From: Nitrospirota bacterium | GTDB lineage: Bacteria; Nitrospirota; Nitrospiria; Nitrospirales; Nitrospiraceae | Assembly (NCBI GenBank): GCA_016200355.1 | Contig: JACQEY010000051.1 | Span: 1 to 36,539 of the forward strand | Direction of reading: 5' to 3' | Length of the DNA stretch: 36,539 bases | Shown: positions 4,065 through 35,158 of the stretch, in pieces | Layout of the letters: each line of letters opens with the position of its first letter | How positions within the stretch are numbered: position 1 is the first letter of the stretch | Made by a program: the position numbers and the translations under genes | Notes under the pieces: generated by a model | What the model saw: the letters and a program-made list of their open reading frames with translations, nothing else | The model's database searches: none | Told to the model about the DNA's origin: nothing

Positions 4065-4293
4065 CACCGCGCTCAGTCAAGCCGCATACGCTGCATCCAT
4101 GACAGTGCGCGGATGAATCGGTCATGTTAGAACTATCCCTTCTGCACTCACGTAACCTGGAATCGTCGTACTGATCGCGACTTCGGGAGTGCCGCCTCCG
4201 GTAGATCTTCTCGTCGACTCTCGCGGCTCGCTAAACAGGTCATGTGTCCTCATGAACCAGGATGTGGCGCGGGGTTTCTCGTGTGCCATTTCG

Positions 4294-4323
4294 TTGACGC
4301 CTCTATCGTTGGTTGTGTATAAA
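4294..4323 (+). promoter_or_regulatory. Sigma70-like promoter for the DHS-like/dsbA/zinc-ribbon operon
   Basis: The -35 element TTGACG (4294-4299) and -10 element TATAAA (4318-4323) are separated by 18 bases. Transcription would begin near 4330, which rules out the longer in-frame extension of the next gene that starts at 4189. Confidence 0.6.
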
Positions 4324-4368
4324 GGGTGCGCTGCTTCTCATTCACTTTTCATGATAGGTAGACCTTTC

Positions 4369-5475
4369 ATGGGTGCACGCGAATTCCACGATGGGGCGCA
4401 AGATGGACTCGAAGCGCTTGAGCCTTTCGACCCTGAACAGATCGGGTCCTTCGACGGCCTGTTGACCGCTATGCGCAAGACAGCCTTTGGGGGCCGCAGA
4501 GTGGGCGAAGCCTACGAAGTGCTTTGGGCGATGATCGAAGACCCGGACTGCTTCGTCGTATTGACGCTGTCAGGGGCGATGACTATTGCGAAGATGGGCA
4601 AGATCATCAGTGCGATGATCGATCATGAGATGGTGCAATGTGTCGTTTCGACCGGGGCATTGATTGCCCATGGGCTGAGTGAGTCGGTTGGTAAAACACA
4701 TTATCGGCACCACCCGTCGATGTCCGATCAAGAGTTGTTCGAGAAGGGCTACAATCGGGTCTACGACACGCTGGAGATGGAGTCCAATCTCAACTACGTT
4801 GAACAAGTCGTTGCCCGAACAATGAAGCGGATGGATCAGGACCAGTCTCTTTCCTCGGAAATCCTCACTCGTGAGCTGGGGAGGACGCTCGCGGAAGAAT
4901 ATGACGGAACGGGTATTCTCAAAAGCGCCTATCTAAAAAAAGTCCCTGTCTTCATCCCTGCCTTTACCGATTCCGAGATGGGGCTGGATCTTGGAACCTG
5001 GGCTATGAGTCGAGATCTCGATCGGGCTCGTGCGCAGGCAAAGGGAAGCGATGATCTTGCGGTGCTGCGCGCGATTCATCGTTCCTATCCGTCCTTCAAT
5101 CCCTATCTCGATCTCAACAGTTATGCGAGCCATGTCATCTCGGCTAAGCGGCGTGGGATCTTTACGATCGGTGGGGGAGTGCCGCGCAATTGGGCGCAAC
5201 AAGTCGGTCCCTACATTGAGATCTGTAATACCAGGCTCGGGCTCAATGTGGAGCCGCCTCGATTCCAGTACGGGGTACGCATCTGTCCGGATCCGGATCA
5301 TTTGGGTGGATTGAGCGGTTGTACCTATCAAGAAGGTCTTTCCTGGGGAAAGTTTGTTCCGCCGGAAGCAGGAGGGCGCTTTGCTGAAGTGTTGAGCGAT
5401 GCCACGATTGTCTGGCCTCTCCTCATGGTCGGGTTGCTGGAGCGACTGAAAGCAAAGCGTACTTTTCACACATGA
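4369..5475 (+). CDS. Deoxyhypusine-synthase-like NAD-dependent aminobutyltransferase
   Basis: The 368-residue product has the marks of the deoxyhypusine synthase family: a Rossmann-type region with LTLSGAMTIAKMGKII, an STGALIAHG segment, a VFIPAFTDSEMG segment, the conserved GGGVPRN loop and the EGLSWGK motif, whose lysine (K328 here) matches the catalytic lysine that carries the aminobutyl imine. Eukaryotic and archaeal enzymes move an aminobutyl group from spermidine to eIF5A. Bacteria lack eIF5A, and their homologues are thought to act on small amines, for instance making homospermidine from putrescine, so the true substrate here is open. The start is set by the promoter at 4294-4323; ATG 4369 has AGGTAG upstream, and ATG 4351 is the alternative. 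It overlaps the next gene by 4 bases. Genes for putrescine formation lie 3 kb downstream. Confidence 0.85.
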   Translation: MGAREFHDGAQDGLEALEPFDPEQIGSFDGLLTAMRKTAFGGRRVGEAYEVLWAMIEDPDCFVVLTLSGAMTIAKMGKIISAMIDHEMVQCVVSTGALIAHGLSESVGKTHYRHHPSMSDQELFEKGYNRVYDTLEMESNLNYVEQVVARTMKRMDQDQSLSSEILTRELGRTLAEEYDGTGILKSAYLKKVPVFIPAFTDSEMGLDLGTWAMSRDLDRARAQAKGSDDLAVLRAIHRSYPSFNPYLDLNSYASHVISAKRRGIFTIGGGVPRNWAQQVGPYIEICNTRLGLNVEPPRFQYGVRICPDPDHLGGLSGCTYQEGLSWGKFVPPEAGGRFAEVLSDATIVWPLLMVGLLERLKAKRTFHT

Positions 5476-6188: not shown

Positions 6189-6458
6189 ATGTCTGCAACA
6201 CAATCGTTTTGGTCTGTTCCGCAACGCGAGGGGGAACCACCCTATTGGATGTGCATGTCGTGCTTGTCGGAAGTCTTCTATCGCAAGGTACCGATGCCGG
6301 ATTGTCCGACGTGCCACGGCGTCTCGACCTATGAGGCCTTCACGCTTGAGGCGATTCGTGATTGGGGCACAGAGGACTTGGTCGCCAAGGCTGATCTCGC
6401 CCAACAGGCTGCCAATCTTGAGCCGACCTCTACGGCATCGGTTCATACCGCCGACTAA
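6189..6458 (+). CDS. Small zinc-ribbon protein, 89 aa
   Basis: Two CxxC pairs, CMSC (about residues 22-25) and CPTC (about 39-42), 13 residues apart, form a rubredoxin- or zinc-ribbon-like knuckle. The C-terminal half is acidic and alanine-rich, with no membrane segment. AAGG lies 7 bases before the ATG, and the gene follows dsbA by 9 bases, so it is the last gene of the operon. The TAA stop directly abuts the left end of the 9-bp-unit repeat element. Function unknown; such proteins often bind nucleic acid or protein partners. Confidence 0.75.
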   Translation: MSATQSFWSVPQREGEPPYWMCMSCLSEVFYRKVPMPDCPTCHGVSTYEAFTLEAIRDWGTEDLVAKADLAQQAANLEPTSTASVHTAD

Positions 6459-6663
6459 CAGGCTGCGGAAAAACGAGGCTGACCTGCCGGAAATCCAATG
6501 GTCCGCGCGTCTGAAACAAGCCCGGTCTGTCTGGTTTCTCTGGTCTCTCTGGTTCATCTGGTTTATCCGGTTAGTCTGGTGCAACCAAATAAACAAGACA
6601 GACCAGACAGACCGAATAGACCACATGAACAAGACAGGCTGGCGGAATTTTTCAGCTCCTGCT
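6459..6663. repeat. Dispersed palindromic element, arms made of 9-bp units (copy 1)
   Basis: The element begins right after the upstream stop with CAGGCTGCGGAAAAA and ends with GGCGGAATTTTTCAGCTCCTG, whose reverse complement resembles the left end; these are probable terminal inverted repeats. Inside, 6521-6583 holds seven consecutive 9-mers close to TCTGGTNNN, and 6581-6634 holds six in the opposite orientation. The conserved hexamer can pair across the two arms while the last three bases vary from unit to unit. Positions 6505-6533 match 34602-34630 in 26 of 29 bases. The ends look like REP/MITE-type elements. On the transcript it would form a long hairpin and may terminate or separate the zinc-ribbon and aldehyde dehydrogenase units. 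Confidence 0.8.
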
Positions 6664-6692
6664 AAGTCTTCACCACCCGCGGGGCGTCTTTC

Positions 6693-8132
6693 GTGCAAGA
6701 ACCACGTCCATTCTTGATTGGAGGTCTGTGGCGGCAAGGGGAGACGGTTGTCCCTGTAAACGACCCGTTTACAGGACGGCTACTCGCCGAGGTATCGAAC
6801 GCGAGTTCCACGGACGCCGAGGCTGCGATTCAATCGACAGTCGATGCTGCCGCAGCGATGGGGGCTTTGCCCTCCCACGCCCGCTATCGTGCGTTGCAAA
6901 AGATCGCCGGCGGACTTTATGACCGGCGTGAAGAATTTGCCCGCTTGATGATGGCTGAAGCCGGTAAGCCGATCACCGACGCGAAGCGGGAAGTCAGTCG
7001 GGCTGTGCAAACATTTACCGTTGCGGCTGAAGAAGCGAAGCGCATTCCTGGCGAGGTGATCCCTCTGGACTGGACGCCGGGGACGGATTCCCATATCGGC
7101 ATTCTCCGTCGGGTTCCGATCGGTCCGGTGCTCGGCATTACTCCCTTCAATTTTCCCCTGAATCTTGTGGCCCACAAGGTCGCCCCAGCGCTGGCCGCCG
7201 GAAATTCTATTCTCATCAAGCCGGCGCCACAGACACCACTCACCGCGTTACTCTTGGGCGAAGTAGTTCAGGAGGCTGGGCTTCCTGCCGGCGCACTCAA
7301 CATCCTTCCCTGCGACAATACGGTGGCAGAACAGCTTGTCGTCGATTCTCGCTTTAAACTCCTGAGCTTTACCGGCAGCGCTGCTGTGGGATGGATGCTG
7401 AAGGCCAAGTGCGGGAAGAAGAAGGTGGTGTTGGAGCTCGGCGGGAATGCGGGCGTCATCGTGGAGCCCGATGCCGATCTCGAGCTTGCCGCACAGCGCT
7501 GCGCAGTCGGTGGGTTTGGATATGCCGGTCAGACCTGTATTTCCGTGCAACGAATTTTTATCCATCATTCCATCGTGGACCTTTTCACCACGAAGCTTCT
7601 GTTGCAAGTCGCGCGTCTGAAGGCCGGCGATCCGAGCGACGATTCGACAGTGGTCGGGCCACTGATCGATTCGGCCGCGGCCCATCGTGTGGAGGAATGG
7701 GTTGGGGAAGCGGTGTCGCAAGGGGCGCGTGTGCTTCTGGGGGGCAAGCGCATGGGCTCGGTGATGGAGGCGACCGTGCTCTCGCACGTCACGCCAACAA
7801 TGAAAGTTTCTTGTCAGGAGGTGTTTGGGCCGGTGGTGACCGTGACCCCGTACCGACATTTTGGCGAAGCGATCACAGCGCTCAACCAGTCTGACTATGG
7901 GCTCCAGGCTGGAGTGTTCACCCAGGATGTGAATAAAATTTTTCATGCCTTTCGGCATCTTGAGGTTGGAGCCGTGCTGGCAAACGAGATTCCGACGTTT
8001 CGCGCCGACCACATGCCGTATGGTGGCGTGAAGGACTCCGGTGTCGGGCGTGAAGGGGTTCAGGCCGCGATCGAGGATATGACCGAGCCCCGCATGCTAG
8101 TATTGAACCTCAAACCGTCTGCCGGGATCTAG
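6693..8132 (+). CDS. NAD(P)-dependent aldehyde dehydrogenase
   Basis: A 479-residue member of the aldehyde dehydrogenase superfamily that oxidises an aldehyde to an acid with NAD(P). The catalytic cysteine is C282 in GYAGQTCISVQR, the general base is E248 in LELGGNAG, and the stabilising asparagine is N153 in TPFNFPLN. The cofactor-binding FTGSAAVG is at 227-234, and the end carries MPYGGVKDSGVGREG. Length is normal. The start is GTG 6693 with GGGG upstream; no closer ATG is available. The substrate cannot be read from the sequence. Given the polyamine genes around it, an aminoaldehyde is possible, but related enzymes also act on lactaldehyde or glyceraldehyde-3-phosphate. The repeat element ends only 30 bases before the start, so the promoter may lie within it. 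Confidence 0.9.
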   Translation: MQEPRPFLIGGLWRQGETVVPVNDPFTGRLLAEVSNASSTDAEAAIQSTVDAAAAMGALPSHARYRALQKIAGGLYDRREEFARLMMAEAGKPITDAKREVSRAVQTFTVAAEEAKRIPGEVIPLDWTPGTDSHIGILRRVPIGPVLGITPFNFPLNLVAHKVAPALAAGNSILIKPAPQTPLTALLLGEVVQEAGLPAGALNILPCDNTVAEQLVVDSRFKLLSFTGSAAVGWMLKAKCGKKKVVLELGGNAGVIVEPDADLELAAQRCAVGGFGYAGQTCISVQRIFIHHSIVDLFTTKLLLQVARLKAGDPSDDSTVVGPLIDSAAAHRVEEWVGEAVSQGARVLLGGKRMGSVMEATVLSHVTPTMKVSCQEVFGPVVTVTPYRHFGEAITALNQSDYGLQAGVFTQDVNKIFHAFRHLEVGAVLANEIPTFRADHMPYGGVKDSGVGREGVQAAIEDMTEPRMLVLNLKPSAGI

Positions 8133-8274: not shown

Positions 8275-8282
8275 ACAAAACC

Positions 8283-8304
8283 GGCGGACTTTTTCAGCAT
8301 CCTG
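8283..8304. repeat. Isolated terminal repeat of the dispersed element
   Basis: The sequence GGCGGACTTTTTCAGC followed by ATCCTG nearly repeats the right end of the 9-bp-unit element at 6641-6660 (GGCGGAATTTTTCAGC, TCCTG). It is therefore another member or remnant of that family, here directly after the 6-bp-unit hairpin. No matching left end was found after the aldehyde dehydrogenase stop. Confidence 0.6.
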
Positions 8305-8326
8305 TCAGAAAAAACGTCATAGGATA

Positions 8327-18762: not shown

Positions 18763-18771
18763 GAAGGGAAT

Positions 18772-18851
18772 TTTGAATGCTGAATGTTAAATGATGAATG
18801 GGGAGACGGCTCCTCAATTCAACATTCACAATTCACCATTCAACATTGAGG
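18772..18851. repeat. Inverted repeat with 7-bp-unit arms between nuoD and nuoG
   Basis: The left arm is four consecutive heptamers close to NNTGAAT (18772-18799); the right arm is four of the form ATTCANN (18817-18844), the reverse complement of the same unit, plus a variant ending in GAGG (18845-18851). The phase is kept exactly throughout. The last unit appears to supply the ribosome-binding site (GAGG, 5 bases before the nuoG ATG). In the transcript it would form an AU-rich hairpin inside the operon. Confidence 0.75.
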
Positions 18852-26625: not shown

Positions 26626-28332
26626 ATGGCCGACTACGCGCTGCTCTACATCCTGTTTGCCCCCTTCGTGGGGGCCATCGCACTGATCTTTGTTTCCAAC
26701 CGGCAATTGATGCTTGTGCGAGGGATCGCGGCAGGATCAGCTCTTGTCTCATTGCTTGCCTCACTTTATCTGTTCTACGCCTATGATCACGTGAAGGGAG
26801 GCTTCCAATTCGTCCAGCAATTCGCATGGTGTCGTCAGCTGGGTATTTCGCTCCACCTTGGTGTGGATGGGATCGGCACCCCGCTGGTGCTGGCATCGAG
26901 CATTCTGTTGTTCGCGGGTATTTTCGTCTCCTGGCACATCAAGGATCGGACGAAAGAATTCTATATCTGGCTGCTCATCCTCGCCGCCGCCACGATCGGC
27001 GTCTTCATGTCGTTGGATCTATTCTTTCTCTTTTTCTTCTACGAAATGTCCGTGATTCCCATGTATCTCCTGTTGGGCATGTGGGGAAGCCACACGAAAA
27101 CATACAACGAGATGACGGATCCAGAAGGCCTCAAACTGCGGGATTCGGTCGGATTCATCCTCAACTTCGGGTCCAACAGTAAAGAGTACGCCGCGATGAA
27201 ACTCGTGCTCTTTCTCTCGGCCTTTGCCGTCGCGGCGCTGATGGGTATCTTGCTGATCTACAAATACGCCGGTCTCAATACCTTCGACATTCTGGTTCTG
27301 CGTGAACAGGCCAAGCTGATGAACATCCCAGTCTTGGGCACAACGCTCGACAAGATTATTTGGCTCCTGGTCTTCTTCGGCTTTGCCTCGATTGCACCGT
27401 TGTGGCCGCTGCATTCCTGGTCTCCTGTGGGCCACGCGGCCGCGCCGGCCGCCACGAGCATGTTGCACGCGGGAGTGCTGATGAAGCTCGGCCATTTTTC
27501 CATCATCAGGGTGGCCTTTGAGATTTTGCCTGAGACCACGAGAGAACTCATGCCTATCGCGGCCGTGCTCTGCATGTTCAGTATCGTGTACGGCGGGTTC
27601 GTGGCGTTCTACGCCAAAGACACGAAGTATGTGATTGGATATTCCAGCTCCAGTCACATGGGGTATGTCTTCTTAGGCATGGCCGCCCTGGACTACATCA
27701 GCTTGACCGGGGCGGTGATGTATATGTTCGCCCATGCCATGGCCACGGGTATGCTCTTTGCCATGGCCGGGTGGGTATACGATCAGACGCACAGCCGCGA
27801 CATCCCCTCCCTCGGCGGACTCTCGAATCGCATGCCGTTCATCTCCGGCTGTTTCGTGGTGGCATGCATGGCCTCAATCGGCGTACCCGGCACCGTGAAT
27901 TTCATCGCTGAAGTGATGATCATCGTCGGCAGTTGGAACAAGTATCCGTTCCAAGTCATCGTGGCCGTGGTCGGCATCGTCTTGACCCTGGCCTACTTAT
28001 TCAAGATGATGCGCGGGCTTTTCTATGGACCCATGGACCAGAAATACAGTCACGCGCATGACGCAGTCGCCGTAGCCGATCGTCTTCCGCTCTTGATCAT
28101 GATTGCCGTCAGCGTCGGGTTCTTTTTCTTCCCCATGCACCTCTACAATGTGGTGCGGTCGGGCGTCGATCCCTTGATTGTGAAGATTACCCGCGTCGTG
28201 CCGGTGGCGCAGACAGATGAAGGGTCAGGGGTGAGGAGTGAGGCGAGCGCCCCTCCGCGGACGTCTGATATTCCGCTCGTCGCGAAGAGCCCCTCACCCC
28301 TCACCCCTCACCCCTCACAAGGGCTTGAATGA
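26626..28332 (+). CDS. Complex I subunit M, second copy, divergent
   Basis: A second ND4-type subunit (568 aa). E140 (FFYEMSVIPMYLL) and K287 (GVLMKLGHF) are kept, but the lysine expected before the PxxPxHxW motif is I256 (FASIAPLWPLHSW), and the usual LPDAH is SPVGH. An insert of about 25 residues lies at about 155-185 (TKTYNEMTDPEGLKLRDSVGF), in the loop where normal NuoM has GGPNRIYA. The last 35 or so residues (533-567) are translated from the 7-bp-unit repeat and have no counterpart in NuoM. Tandem M genes mark the 2M form of complex I known from Nitrospira; this copy would be the fourth pump or a spacer. Confidence 0.92.
   Translation: MADYALLYILFAPFVGAIALIFVSNRQLMLVRGIAAGSALVSLLASLYLFYAYDHVKGGFQFVQQFAWCRQLGISLHLGVDGIGTPLVLASSILLFAGIFVSWHIKDRTKEFYIWLLILAAATIGVFMSLDLFFLFFFYEMSVIPMYLLLGMWGSHTKTYNEMTDPEGLKLRDSVGFILNFGSNSKEYAAMKLVLFLSAFAVAALMGILLIYKYAGLNTFDILVLREQAKLMNIPVLGTTLDKIIWLLVFFGFASIAPLWPLHSWSPVGHAAAPAATSMLHAGVLMKLGHFSIIRVAFEILPETTRELMPIAAVLCMFSIVYGGFVAFYAKDTKYVIGYSSSSHMGYVFLGMAALDYISLTGAVMYMFAHAMATGMLFAMAGWVYDQTHSRDIPSLGGLSNRMPFISGCFVVACMASIGVPGTVNFIAEVMIIVGSWNKYPFQVIVAVVGIVLTLAYLFKMMRGLFYGPMDQKYSHAHDAVAVADRLPLLIMIAVSVGFFFFPMHLYNVVRSGVDPLIVKITRVVPVAQTDEGSGVRSEASAPPRTSDIPLVAKSPSPLTPHPSQGLE
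28222..28318. repeat. Inverted repeat with 7-bp-unit arms inside the 3' end of the second nuoM
   Basis: The right arm has four perfect tandem copies of CCCTCAC (28291-28318). The left arm has three units close to GTGAGGN (28224-28244), the complementary heptamer, in phase. The spacer of about 46 bases is unrelated. Unlike the other copies it is within a reading frame, and its translation gives a Pro/Ser/Thr-rich tail. Confidence 0.8.
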
Positions 28333-34529: not shown

Positions 34530-34556
34530 GTCTGTCGAGATGGATGTCGGACTAGT

Positions 34557-34726
34557 AGGCAGCGGAAGAACCATTTCGGCACAGAAGAGCTTCGACGAAC
34601 GGCGCGTCTAAGACAAGCTCGGTCTGTCTGATTATCTGGTTTGTTTTGTTCACCTAGTTGGTCTTGTTGAACCAAACAAACGAGACAAACCCAATAAACC
34701 AAATAACAGCTTTCTTCCGCTTGCAG
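34557..34726. repeat. Dispersed palindromic element, arms made of 9-bp units (copy 2)
   Basis: The ends GGCAGCGGAAGAA (left) and the reverse complement of TTCTTCCGCTTGC (right) form terminal inverted repeats. Inside, 34635-34670 holds four 9-mers close to TCTGGTTNN, and 34668-34703 holds four in reverse orientation. One 8-base unit at 34627 marks an indel. Positions 34602-34630 match the copy at 6505-6533 in 26 of 29 bases. It lies between two convergent genes and could serve as a two-way terminator. Confidence 0.78.
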
Positions 34727-34732
34727 ACGCTT

Positions 34733-35158
34733 TCAGCGGCGCCTCGATTCAACTGGAAAACCTGCTGCAAGCCAGGCATTCATGCTGCCGGTGACGTTAT
34801 AGACATGACGATAACCCAAGTCGGCGAGCGTTTCTGCCGCAATGTTGCTGCGATGACCGGACTGGCAATAGACCACCAGATGATCCTCCAGCTGGGCGCC
34901 GATTTCACGATGCCGAGCTTGAATTTCTCTGAACTCAATGTTCAGATCGGTGCCGGGAATGTATCCTGTCGCATGTTCTTCCTCCGATCGGACATCAATC
35001 AGGATGAAACCCTTCTGCGACATCGAAGGCGCCTTGGTCAATCCGGTACGCAATTGCTGGACTGTGAGCAAGTAGGAATGATGGGCTGACACACCACTGA
35101 TCGAGATCCCAGATAGCAGAAACAGACCGAGAACTACGGCGACAATTCGCAAGGTCAT
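34733..35158 (-). CDS. Periplasmic rhodanese-like sulfurtransferase
   Basis: Residues 1-25 form a signal peptide (ending GVSAHH). The rest is a single rhodanese domain: FILIDVRSEEEHATGYIPG, then the active-site loop CQSGHRS with C98, and GYRHVYNVTGSMNAWLAAGFPV at the end. It probably carries persulfide sulfur in the periplasm. The start has a very good GAAAGGAGG ribosome-binding site. It is divergent from the lipoprotein gene; the 77-base gap contains two short inverted repeats (GAGTG...CACTC and TGAGA...TCTCA) that could be operators. Confidence 0.88.
   Translation of the reverse strand: MTLRIVAVVLGLFLLSGISISGVSAHHSYLLTVQQLRTGLTKAPSMSQKGFILIDVRSEEEHATGYIPGTDLNIEFREIQARHREIGAQLEDHLVVYCQSGHRSNIAAETLADLGYRHVYNVTGSMNAWLAAGFPVESRRR

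Follow-up and report, generated by a model that had tools for sequence, protein, structure and literature searches.

Strong palindromes are usually assigned to one of a few sequence families (REP, MITE or terminator). Short tandem units have precedents: the STRR heptamers of cyanobacteria are dispersed intergenic 7-bp tandem units, like those of the Nitrospira palindromes described below. The element analysed here lies in a 36,539-nucleotide stretch of Nitrospirota DNA, the whole of which we call the window, and it resembles the MITEs of the IS5 family. It is short, non-coding and multicopy, it has an end in common with an IS5-family insertion sequence, and at the window site it occupies a CTAR target whose four bases stand on either side of it; the usual target duplication of IS5 is CTAG according to the available text of PMC10379815. 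It differs from those MITEs in its interior: a palindrome of 9-bp units that can be replaced and that also occurs without the ends, including in other genera. REPINs and their RAYT transposases (Bertels and Rainey 2011, PMC3116915; cited, like the other publications here, for the portion accessible to us) share with it an extragenic inverted pair forming a predicted hairpin, and REPIN-shaped palindromes with related ends occur in the same genomes. In contrast to that system, the genome carrying the window has no Y1 match, the arms are made of tandem units, and the left end matches a DDE transposon.

The nearest published precedent that we found is provided by the inverted heptamer arrays of Xanthomonas. 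According to the accessible part of that report (PMC4692102), intergenic arrays of GGGAATC heptamers occur as inverted pairs 70 times in one species and 75 times in another, with many arrays within 50 bp of stop codons and with lengths that vary between relatives; the same text relays the idea that 7-bp repeats mirror the length of DNA held by polymerase. As in Nitrospira, short tandem units face each other in intergenic DNA near stops. The Xanthomonas heptamers, however, are G-rich and quadruplex-forming, with one unit sequence and no mobile carrier mentioned in that part of the report, whereas the Nitrospira units are degenerate, include a 9-bp type, comprise many unit words and have mobile carriers. 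Judged by their sequence, the TYTGGTNNN units of the window contain no run of three G. TAACTGA repeats (PMC4679880, same limit) are likewise dispersed intergenic 7-bp tandem units, but their sets are direct arrays (the BOGUAY genome has a single inverted case) that are mostly placed ahead of start codons. The RepRanger report (PMC12306157) includes Nitrospira moscoviensis in its REP table, without sequences in the portion available. No description of such elements in Nitrospira was found in a search by title and abstract that left most subscription literature outside. The sequence-only reading had known no named element of this construction; we too found none, but the Xanthomonas arrays are a precedent for it.

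The element starts on the base after a stop codon, as that reading had stated: a TAA at 6456-6458 ends an 89-aa ORF, for which Pfam gave no match, and the body begins at 6459. On its 3' side lies an aldehyde dehydrogenase gene (6693-8132). The parts of the element, and a second copy in the window, are as follows.

6455-6458, forward strand: left target copy CTAA, whose TAA is the stop of the 89-aa ORF (empty-site comparison).
6459-6661, forward strand: inserted element of 203 bp (empty-site comparison).
6459-6474, forward strand: left terminal inverted repeat CAGGCTGCGGAAAAAC, the same sequence as the terminal repeat of the IS5-family insertion sequence at locus L281.
6475-6520, forward strand: left domain, common to the insertions at the same site in genomes G013 and G016.
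6521-6580, forward strand: left arm of seven TYTGGTNNN units, the last triplet being the apex (window sequence).
6581-6583, no strand: apex triplet GCA, common to both arms (window sequence).
6584-6634, reverse strand: right arm of six inverted units with an ACCARA core (window sequence).
6641-6661, reverse strand: right terminal inverted repeat CAGGAGCTGAAAAATTCCGCC, only partly like the insertion sequence repeat.
6662-6665, forward strand: right target copy CTAA (empty-site comparison).
34552-34737, forward strand: second, degenerate copy of the element, with six forward and four inverted units (profile and unit search).

Seven direct 9-mers followed by six inverted ones in strict phase had been proposed, and this description was borne out at 6521-6634, where all units keep a single 9-bp register around the shared apex triplet. 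The left arm reads CCCGGTctg TCTGGTttc TCTGGTctc TCTGGTtca TCTGGTtta TCCGGTtag TCTGGTgca and the right arm ACCAAAtaa ACAAGAcag ACCAGAcag ACCGAAtag ACCACAtga ACAAGA. The proposed constancy of the hexamer core applies best to the left arm, where five of seven units are exactly TCTGGT; the right arm is looser. The triplets listed earlier (CTG, TTC, CTC, TCA, TTA, TAG, GCA) are exact to the letter, but they do not vary freely in every unit; close to the apex, the form seen most often among the copies differs from one unit position to the next. Elsewhere in the window, positions 4189-5475 encode a deoxyhypusine synthase-family protein (PF01916), in a bacterium.

The inverted array of 9-mers is confirmed as a real feature of the window. 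A three-unit pattern allowing up to three mismatches has 13 matches in the window, nine of them inside the element, against 0.13 expected from shuffles, and our array finder returned no arrays from 40 shuffled loci. The predicted fold of the element is better than all 200 dinucleotide shuffles on each strand (z of -4.0 and -5.6), which answers the call for a folding check, and 220 of 232 arrays of the family fold at z below -2 (20 base shuffles per array). An Rfam search of the window gave no match above the gathering score. The sequence-only reading would have been abandoned had the element been found nowhere else or had its periodicity not exceeded that of shuffled sequence; the matches across the family and the shuffle controls exclude both.

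Comparison with relatives establishes that the window copy is an insertion. The orthologous site upstream of the aldehyde dehydrogenase gene is readable in 17 genomes, including the one carrying the window; 14 have an empty site, with the sequence GACTAAGTC or one close to it, and three (our own, G013 and G016) are filled, our own having CTAA on either side. Compared position by position with our copy, 55 of the first 62 insert bases are identical in G013 and 53 in G016. Since all three share the left end and the left domain, one ancestral insertion is the simplest reading. The interiors differ: G016 contains a different, shorter 9-mer array with a different leader, and in G013 the array is absent and a different palindrome takes its place. 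We therefore read the interiors as having been exchanged or replaced inside an existing insertion. At another locus (L109, 4136-4241), the ortholog reads TAGCAGGATGCTAG where its relative, L035, has an array, resembling the outcome of an interior deletion.

The ends link the element to the IS5 family. In genome G014 (locus L281), a 1319-bp insertion sequence has CTAG on each side; its terminal repeat, CAGGCTGCGGAAAAAC, is perfect, and it encodes an intact transposase of 366 aa that matches NF033581 (IS5 family, NCBIfam) with 280.6 bits against a cut-off of 140. Insertion sequence copies with CTAGCAGG-type ends also occur in L287, L288 and L296. The left end of the window element is identical to the L281 repeat over 16 of 16 bp; the right end is similar only. 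The REP-like ends of the earlier description fit in shape, but the left one is thus an IS5-type terminal repeat, and its sharing with an autonomous insertion sequence, together with the empty site and the flanking CTAA (at the window site only), is what an IS5-type MITE would display. In our own genome the end pattern has 211 matches against two for a control, and it also flanks palindromes without 9-mers. Ends fall exactly on a called stop codon in 56 of 363 cases (44 TAG, 12 TAA, no TGA), where all called stops comprise 330 TAG, 291 TAA and 388 TGA; these counts rest on genes called with a simple dicodon model of our own, and a few overlapping loci are counted twice. If insertion at CTAR duplicates the target, a stop codon that is hit would be restored, which would account for this bias to TAG and TAA. 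The commonest flank of an end is CTAG (76 of 405 ends). Over 79 end pairs, identical flanking 4-mers are not in excess (six, against 5.05 by shuffling). A transposase relative (E<=1e-20) is present in nine of 32 genus genomes and in five of the 13 with at least 100 array matches; none was found in our own genome or in the other eight of those 13. Insertion sequences are often missing from draft genomes, and for this reason the absence says little. An autonomous partner was sought inside three of five widely spaced end pairs, where the long ORFs extend beyond the pair or are not transposase-like by eye.

The element belongs to a large family across the genus, as the search of our own and related genomes proposed earlier has now made clear. 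Our own genome (2.94 Mb in 242 contigs) has 71 matches per strand. The element search there gave 60 match rows from 40 scored of 167 candidates, with some places counted again on the opposite strand, and the apex pattern has 107 and 100 matches against nine and 12 for a reversed control pattern. A 22-base apex scan of named genomes retrieved at least 112 stretches, and all titles among the matches listed are Nitrospira, Nitrospiraceae or Nitrospirae. A 33-base pattern, searched with no more than two mismatches, matches all 32 genus genomes, with up to 117 matches per strand (controls 0 to 4), although two of them have a single match each, possibly by chance; when one mismatch is allowed, matches occur in 30 of the 32 genomes of the genus and in 40 of 147 of the family, and occurrence in the other genera of the family is patchy. 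In a phylum-wide draw of 295 genomes, 79 of them family members, 13 match, every one inside the family, and none of the 216 outside it does.

The profile of complete copies has a consensus 196-197 bp long, whose inverted ends read CTAGCAGGCTGCGGAAAAAC ... GGCGGACTTTTTCAGCATCCTGCTA(G); the consensus strings that we folded were transcribed from the profiles by hand. For the arrays themselves, 322 profile matches were reduced to 251 by unit-finder thresholds and to 232 by dropping identical apices. The apex spacing is 3 in 211 of these 232 distinct arrays, and 1820 of 1915 hexamer-to-hexamer spacers are exactly 3 bp, a count partly built in, since the finder rewards that spacing. Unit positions around the apex each have their own commonest form, for example ACCAAACAA at R1 and TCTGGTTAG at L2 (88 arrays of our own genome and 144 others); the forms are weak away from the apex, and the units next to it are biased in the 144 others because those loci were picked by apex pattern. 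The shared forms near the apex fit a descent of the copies from common arrays.

The 9-mer array is a module separable from the ends, for the filled sites differ in interior and about half of all arrays are without such ends. Among the 88 arrays of our own genome, 15 have both ends, 28 have one and 45 have none; the corresponding numbers for the 144 others are 18, 46 and 80. In three other genera (g5, g23 and g25) an IS-type end is found on only two of 46 array sides. No conserved terminus was found outside the last unit on the bare sides of arrays. At four loci of genome G139 (L379, L380, L382 and L384) the 9-mer array stands between REPIN-like arms; the four copies show 85-95% identity over about 171-187 bp, and judging by these sequences another carrier has apparently spread the array there. 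Unit gain and loss were assessed from alignment indels, length differences modulo 9 from the unit finder being set aside as circular. Alignments of 60 orthologous pairs among 79 copies (pairs that are therefore not independent) contain 223 indels, of which 141 do not exceed 6 bp; among the remaining 82, of 7 bp or more, 45 are multiples of 9 (33 of 9 bp, seven of 18, three of 27 and two of 36).

Construction from tandem units extends beyond the TYTGGT arrays. We scanned fetched loci totalling 1.46 Mb, most of them selected for their TYTGGT arrays, for imperfect palindromes both of whose arms are periodic at one period. The scan found 340; a motif rule assigned 291 to the TYTGGT type, and of the 49 others 38 have 7-bp units; 298 palindromes in these loci have period 9, both totals including overlapping and duplicate loci. 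A Markov-resampled control of equal length gave none. In an unselected genus genome, G019, we sampled ten 20-kb regions (200 kb in all) at fixed steps along one long contig; of the 29 strong palindromes there, 23 are periodic (ten TYTGGT, 13 others), mostly with 7- or 9-bp units. Equal samples gave none of four in G032 (same family), one of 12 in G041 and none of five in G050 (both same order), so that 23 of 29 compares with one of 21 (Fisher p 9e-8); resampled controls gave none of ten. The 62 palindromes with other units from both sets are built from 46 distinct unit words, which include near-variants of one another. In the window itself, three of five palindromes are periodic, namely the 9-mer element and two with 7-bp units:

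18769-18849, no strand: palindrome with 7-bp units (GAATGNT), detected at 18781-18849 in the palindrome scan of the window.
28227-28315, no strand: palindrome with 7-bp units (CCCCTCA), from the same scan.

A palindrome of the GAATGNT type is also present in L066, L022, L179 and L171.

Other accounts of the element have to be weighed against an IS5-type insertion carrying a separable hairpin module. That it might be a REPIN, an inverted pair of REP sequences moved by a RAYT (Y1) transposase, is suggested by its paired, foldable ends, its extragenic placement and its high copy number; moreover, 33 of 61 relatives have Y1 matches, and a rho of 0.42 (p 0.064) relates Y1 count to copy number in the 20 genus genomes whose completeness is 90% or more. 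Over all 32 genus genomes, however, the correlation is not significant (rho 0.23, p 0.21), our own genome (G000, 92.6% complete) contains no Y1_Tnp match, and the left end is identical to the repeat of a DDE IS5 element with CTAG on either side. We rejected a RAYT origin on the first two of these grounds and consider the REPIN account very unlikely. Of the earlier reading, then, the dispersed element, its arms of 9-bp units, its paired ends and its placement at a stop codon stand, and the link to RAYT is not supported. Palindromes of about 130 bp, TAGCAGGATGCTGAAAAAGTCCGCCAGC...GGCCTTGCTGGACGGCCTTTTTGAGCATCCTGC, that have an end type in common with the 9-mer element were seen at L059 (462), L119 (3479), L141 (3431) and other places; most are without CTAG on the other side, and they form a separate, REPIN-like family. 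It is also very unlikely, in our judgement, that the arrays are plain decayed minisatellites, inverted by happenstance. The 9-bp indels between orthologues would suit such an origin, heptamer tandem repeats are known from other bacteria (PMC4692102 and PMC4679880, in their available parts), and eight of 24 tandem windows in G019 overlap no palindrome that we found; the other 16 do overlap one, though, and the unit forms that unrelated loci have in common near the apex, as well as the sheer number of period-9 palindromes in the fetched loci (overlaps included), argue against it.

Alternatively, the palindromes could be hairpins maintained behind genes as mRNA stabilisers or terminators, their mobility being incidental. 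Placement is what speaks for this. Bare array edges facing the 3' end of a gene lie a median of 13.5 bp behind the stop, 75% of them within 29 bp (n=164); of 192 gene pairs with an array, 55 are convergent, 20 divergent and 117 tandem, against 98, 116 and 515 of 729 array-free background pairs. The palindromes with other units likewise lie a median of 13 bp behind stops (n=51), but only four of 53 are between convergent genes, which is no enrichment (43 are tandem, six divergent, five inside called genes and four at edges). The cores can indeed pair across the arms, as had been suggested, and in our own genome the arms pair far better than shuffled ones (-22.8 against -13.4 kcal/mol), adding to the strong folds of nearly all arrays. 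Nonetheless, arms of different copies pair as well as arms of the same copy (self against cross -22.84 against -24.22 in our own genome and -23.87 against -23.77 in the others, a value reached by 1864 of 5000 permutations), so no compensation is seen; RNAalifold returned no pairs for 31 aligned copies out of 44 full-length ones, a weak test given register slips between copies, and structure-conserving evolution was rejected on these two results. Conservation shows no excess either (identity 0.849 in arrays, 0.853 in other intergenic DNA). In the first set, taken up to 40 nt from a stop, the more stable strand was on the transcribed side in 56 cases against 31, and over all orthologue clusters in 57 against 36 (p 0.02), but the loci fetched afterwards gave 20 clusters against 18, and strand-specific stability was dropped as not replicated. 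An intrinsic terminator was also rejected: in G019, T5 was absent from both strands within 20 nt of all 23 unit palindromes, while 1.4% of random places have it. Survival where insertions are harmless would explain the placement equally well, and a position at gene ends fits both tolerance and function. Overall, we regard maintained hairpins as unlikely, if worth bearing in mind.

The reading that we prefer, with a probability of about 0.7, is one in which the window element is a MITE-like insertion, itself non-autonomous, whose IS5-type ends enclose a separable hairpin module. Its anatomy and history are well supported; the enzyme we infer. An IS5-family transposase would have moved the element in trans, choosing CTAR targets, so that ends landed on TAG or TAA stops that the target duplication would have kept intact. 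Our own genome is without that transposase, and movement in trans is therefore an inference about the past; the flanking 4-mers, which show no excess over many copies, and the right end, only partly like the insertion sequence repeat, also count against this account. The palindromic array is probably older than the IS5-type ends and independent of them. Slippage of 7-9 bp units combined with fold-back or strand switching would be its likeliest origin, although the predominance of indels of 6 bp or shorter between orthologous arrays argues the other way. Arrays may then have been copied between sites by recombination and by riding on IS5-type carriers. They could persist behind stops as a tolerated place, and possibly also because a predicted transcribed hairpin protects or ends mRNA, a role for which covariation, conservation and strand stability gave no support.

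The occupation of one insertion site by different interiors suggests that in a major group of nitrifiers the hairpins between mobile-element ends evolve as modules separate from those ends. The rule of arms built from tandem units is the more surprising part of our findings. In the genus sample most strong palindromes have a construction rule in common and not a sequence, and the origin of bacterial intergenic hairpins thereby becomes testable, with unit slippage and strand switching on one side and selection at gene ends on the other. We propose tentatively, and at somewhat less than even odds, that a process in Nitrospira writes palindromes from short tandem units (7-9 bp, many unrelated words) directly behind stops; the class was recognised late in the work, and the genomes behind it are one unselected member of the genus and three others. 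If this were so, a unit would consist of a conserved core and a free spacer, TYTGGTNNN would be the type that escaped into dispersal, partly by means of IS5-type ends, and the class of palindrome would be defined by construction instead of sequence. At 8281-8310 the window also contains a solitary right-type end, GGCGGACTTTTTCAGCATCCTG, preceded by what appears by eye to be a palindrome of 6-bp-like units (AAGGTT/AACCTT), and a similar palindrome stands between ends in L070, at 2647.
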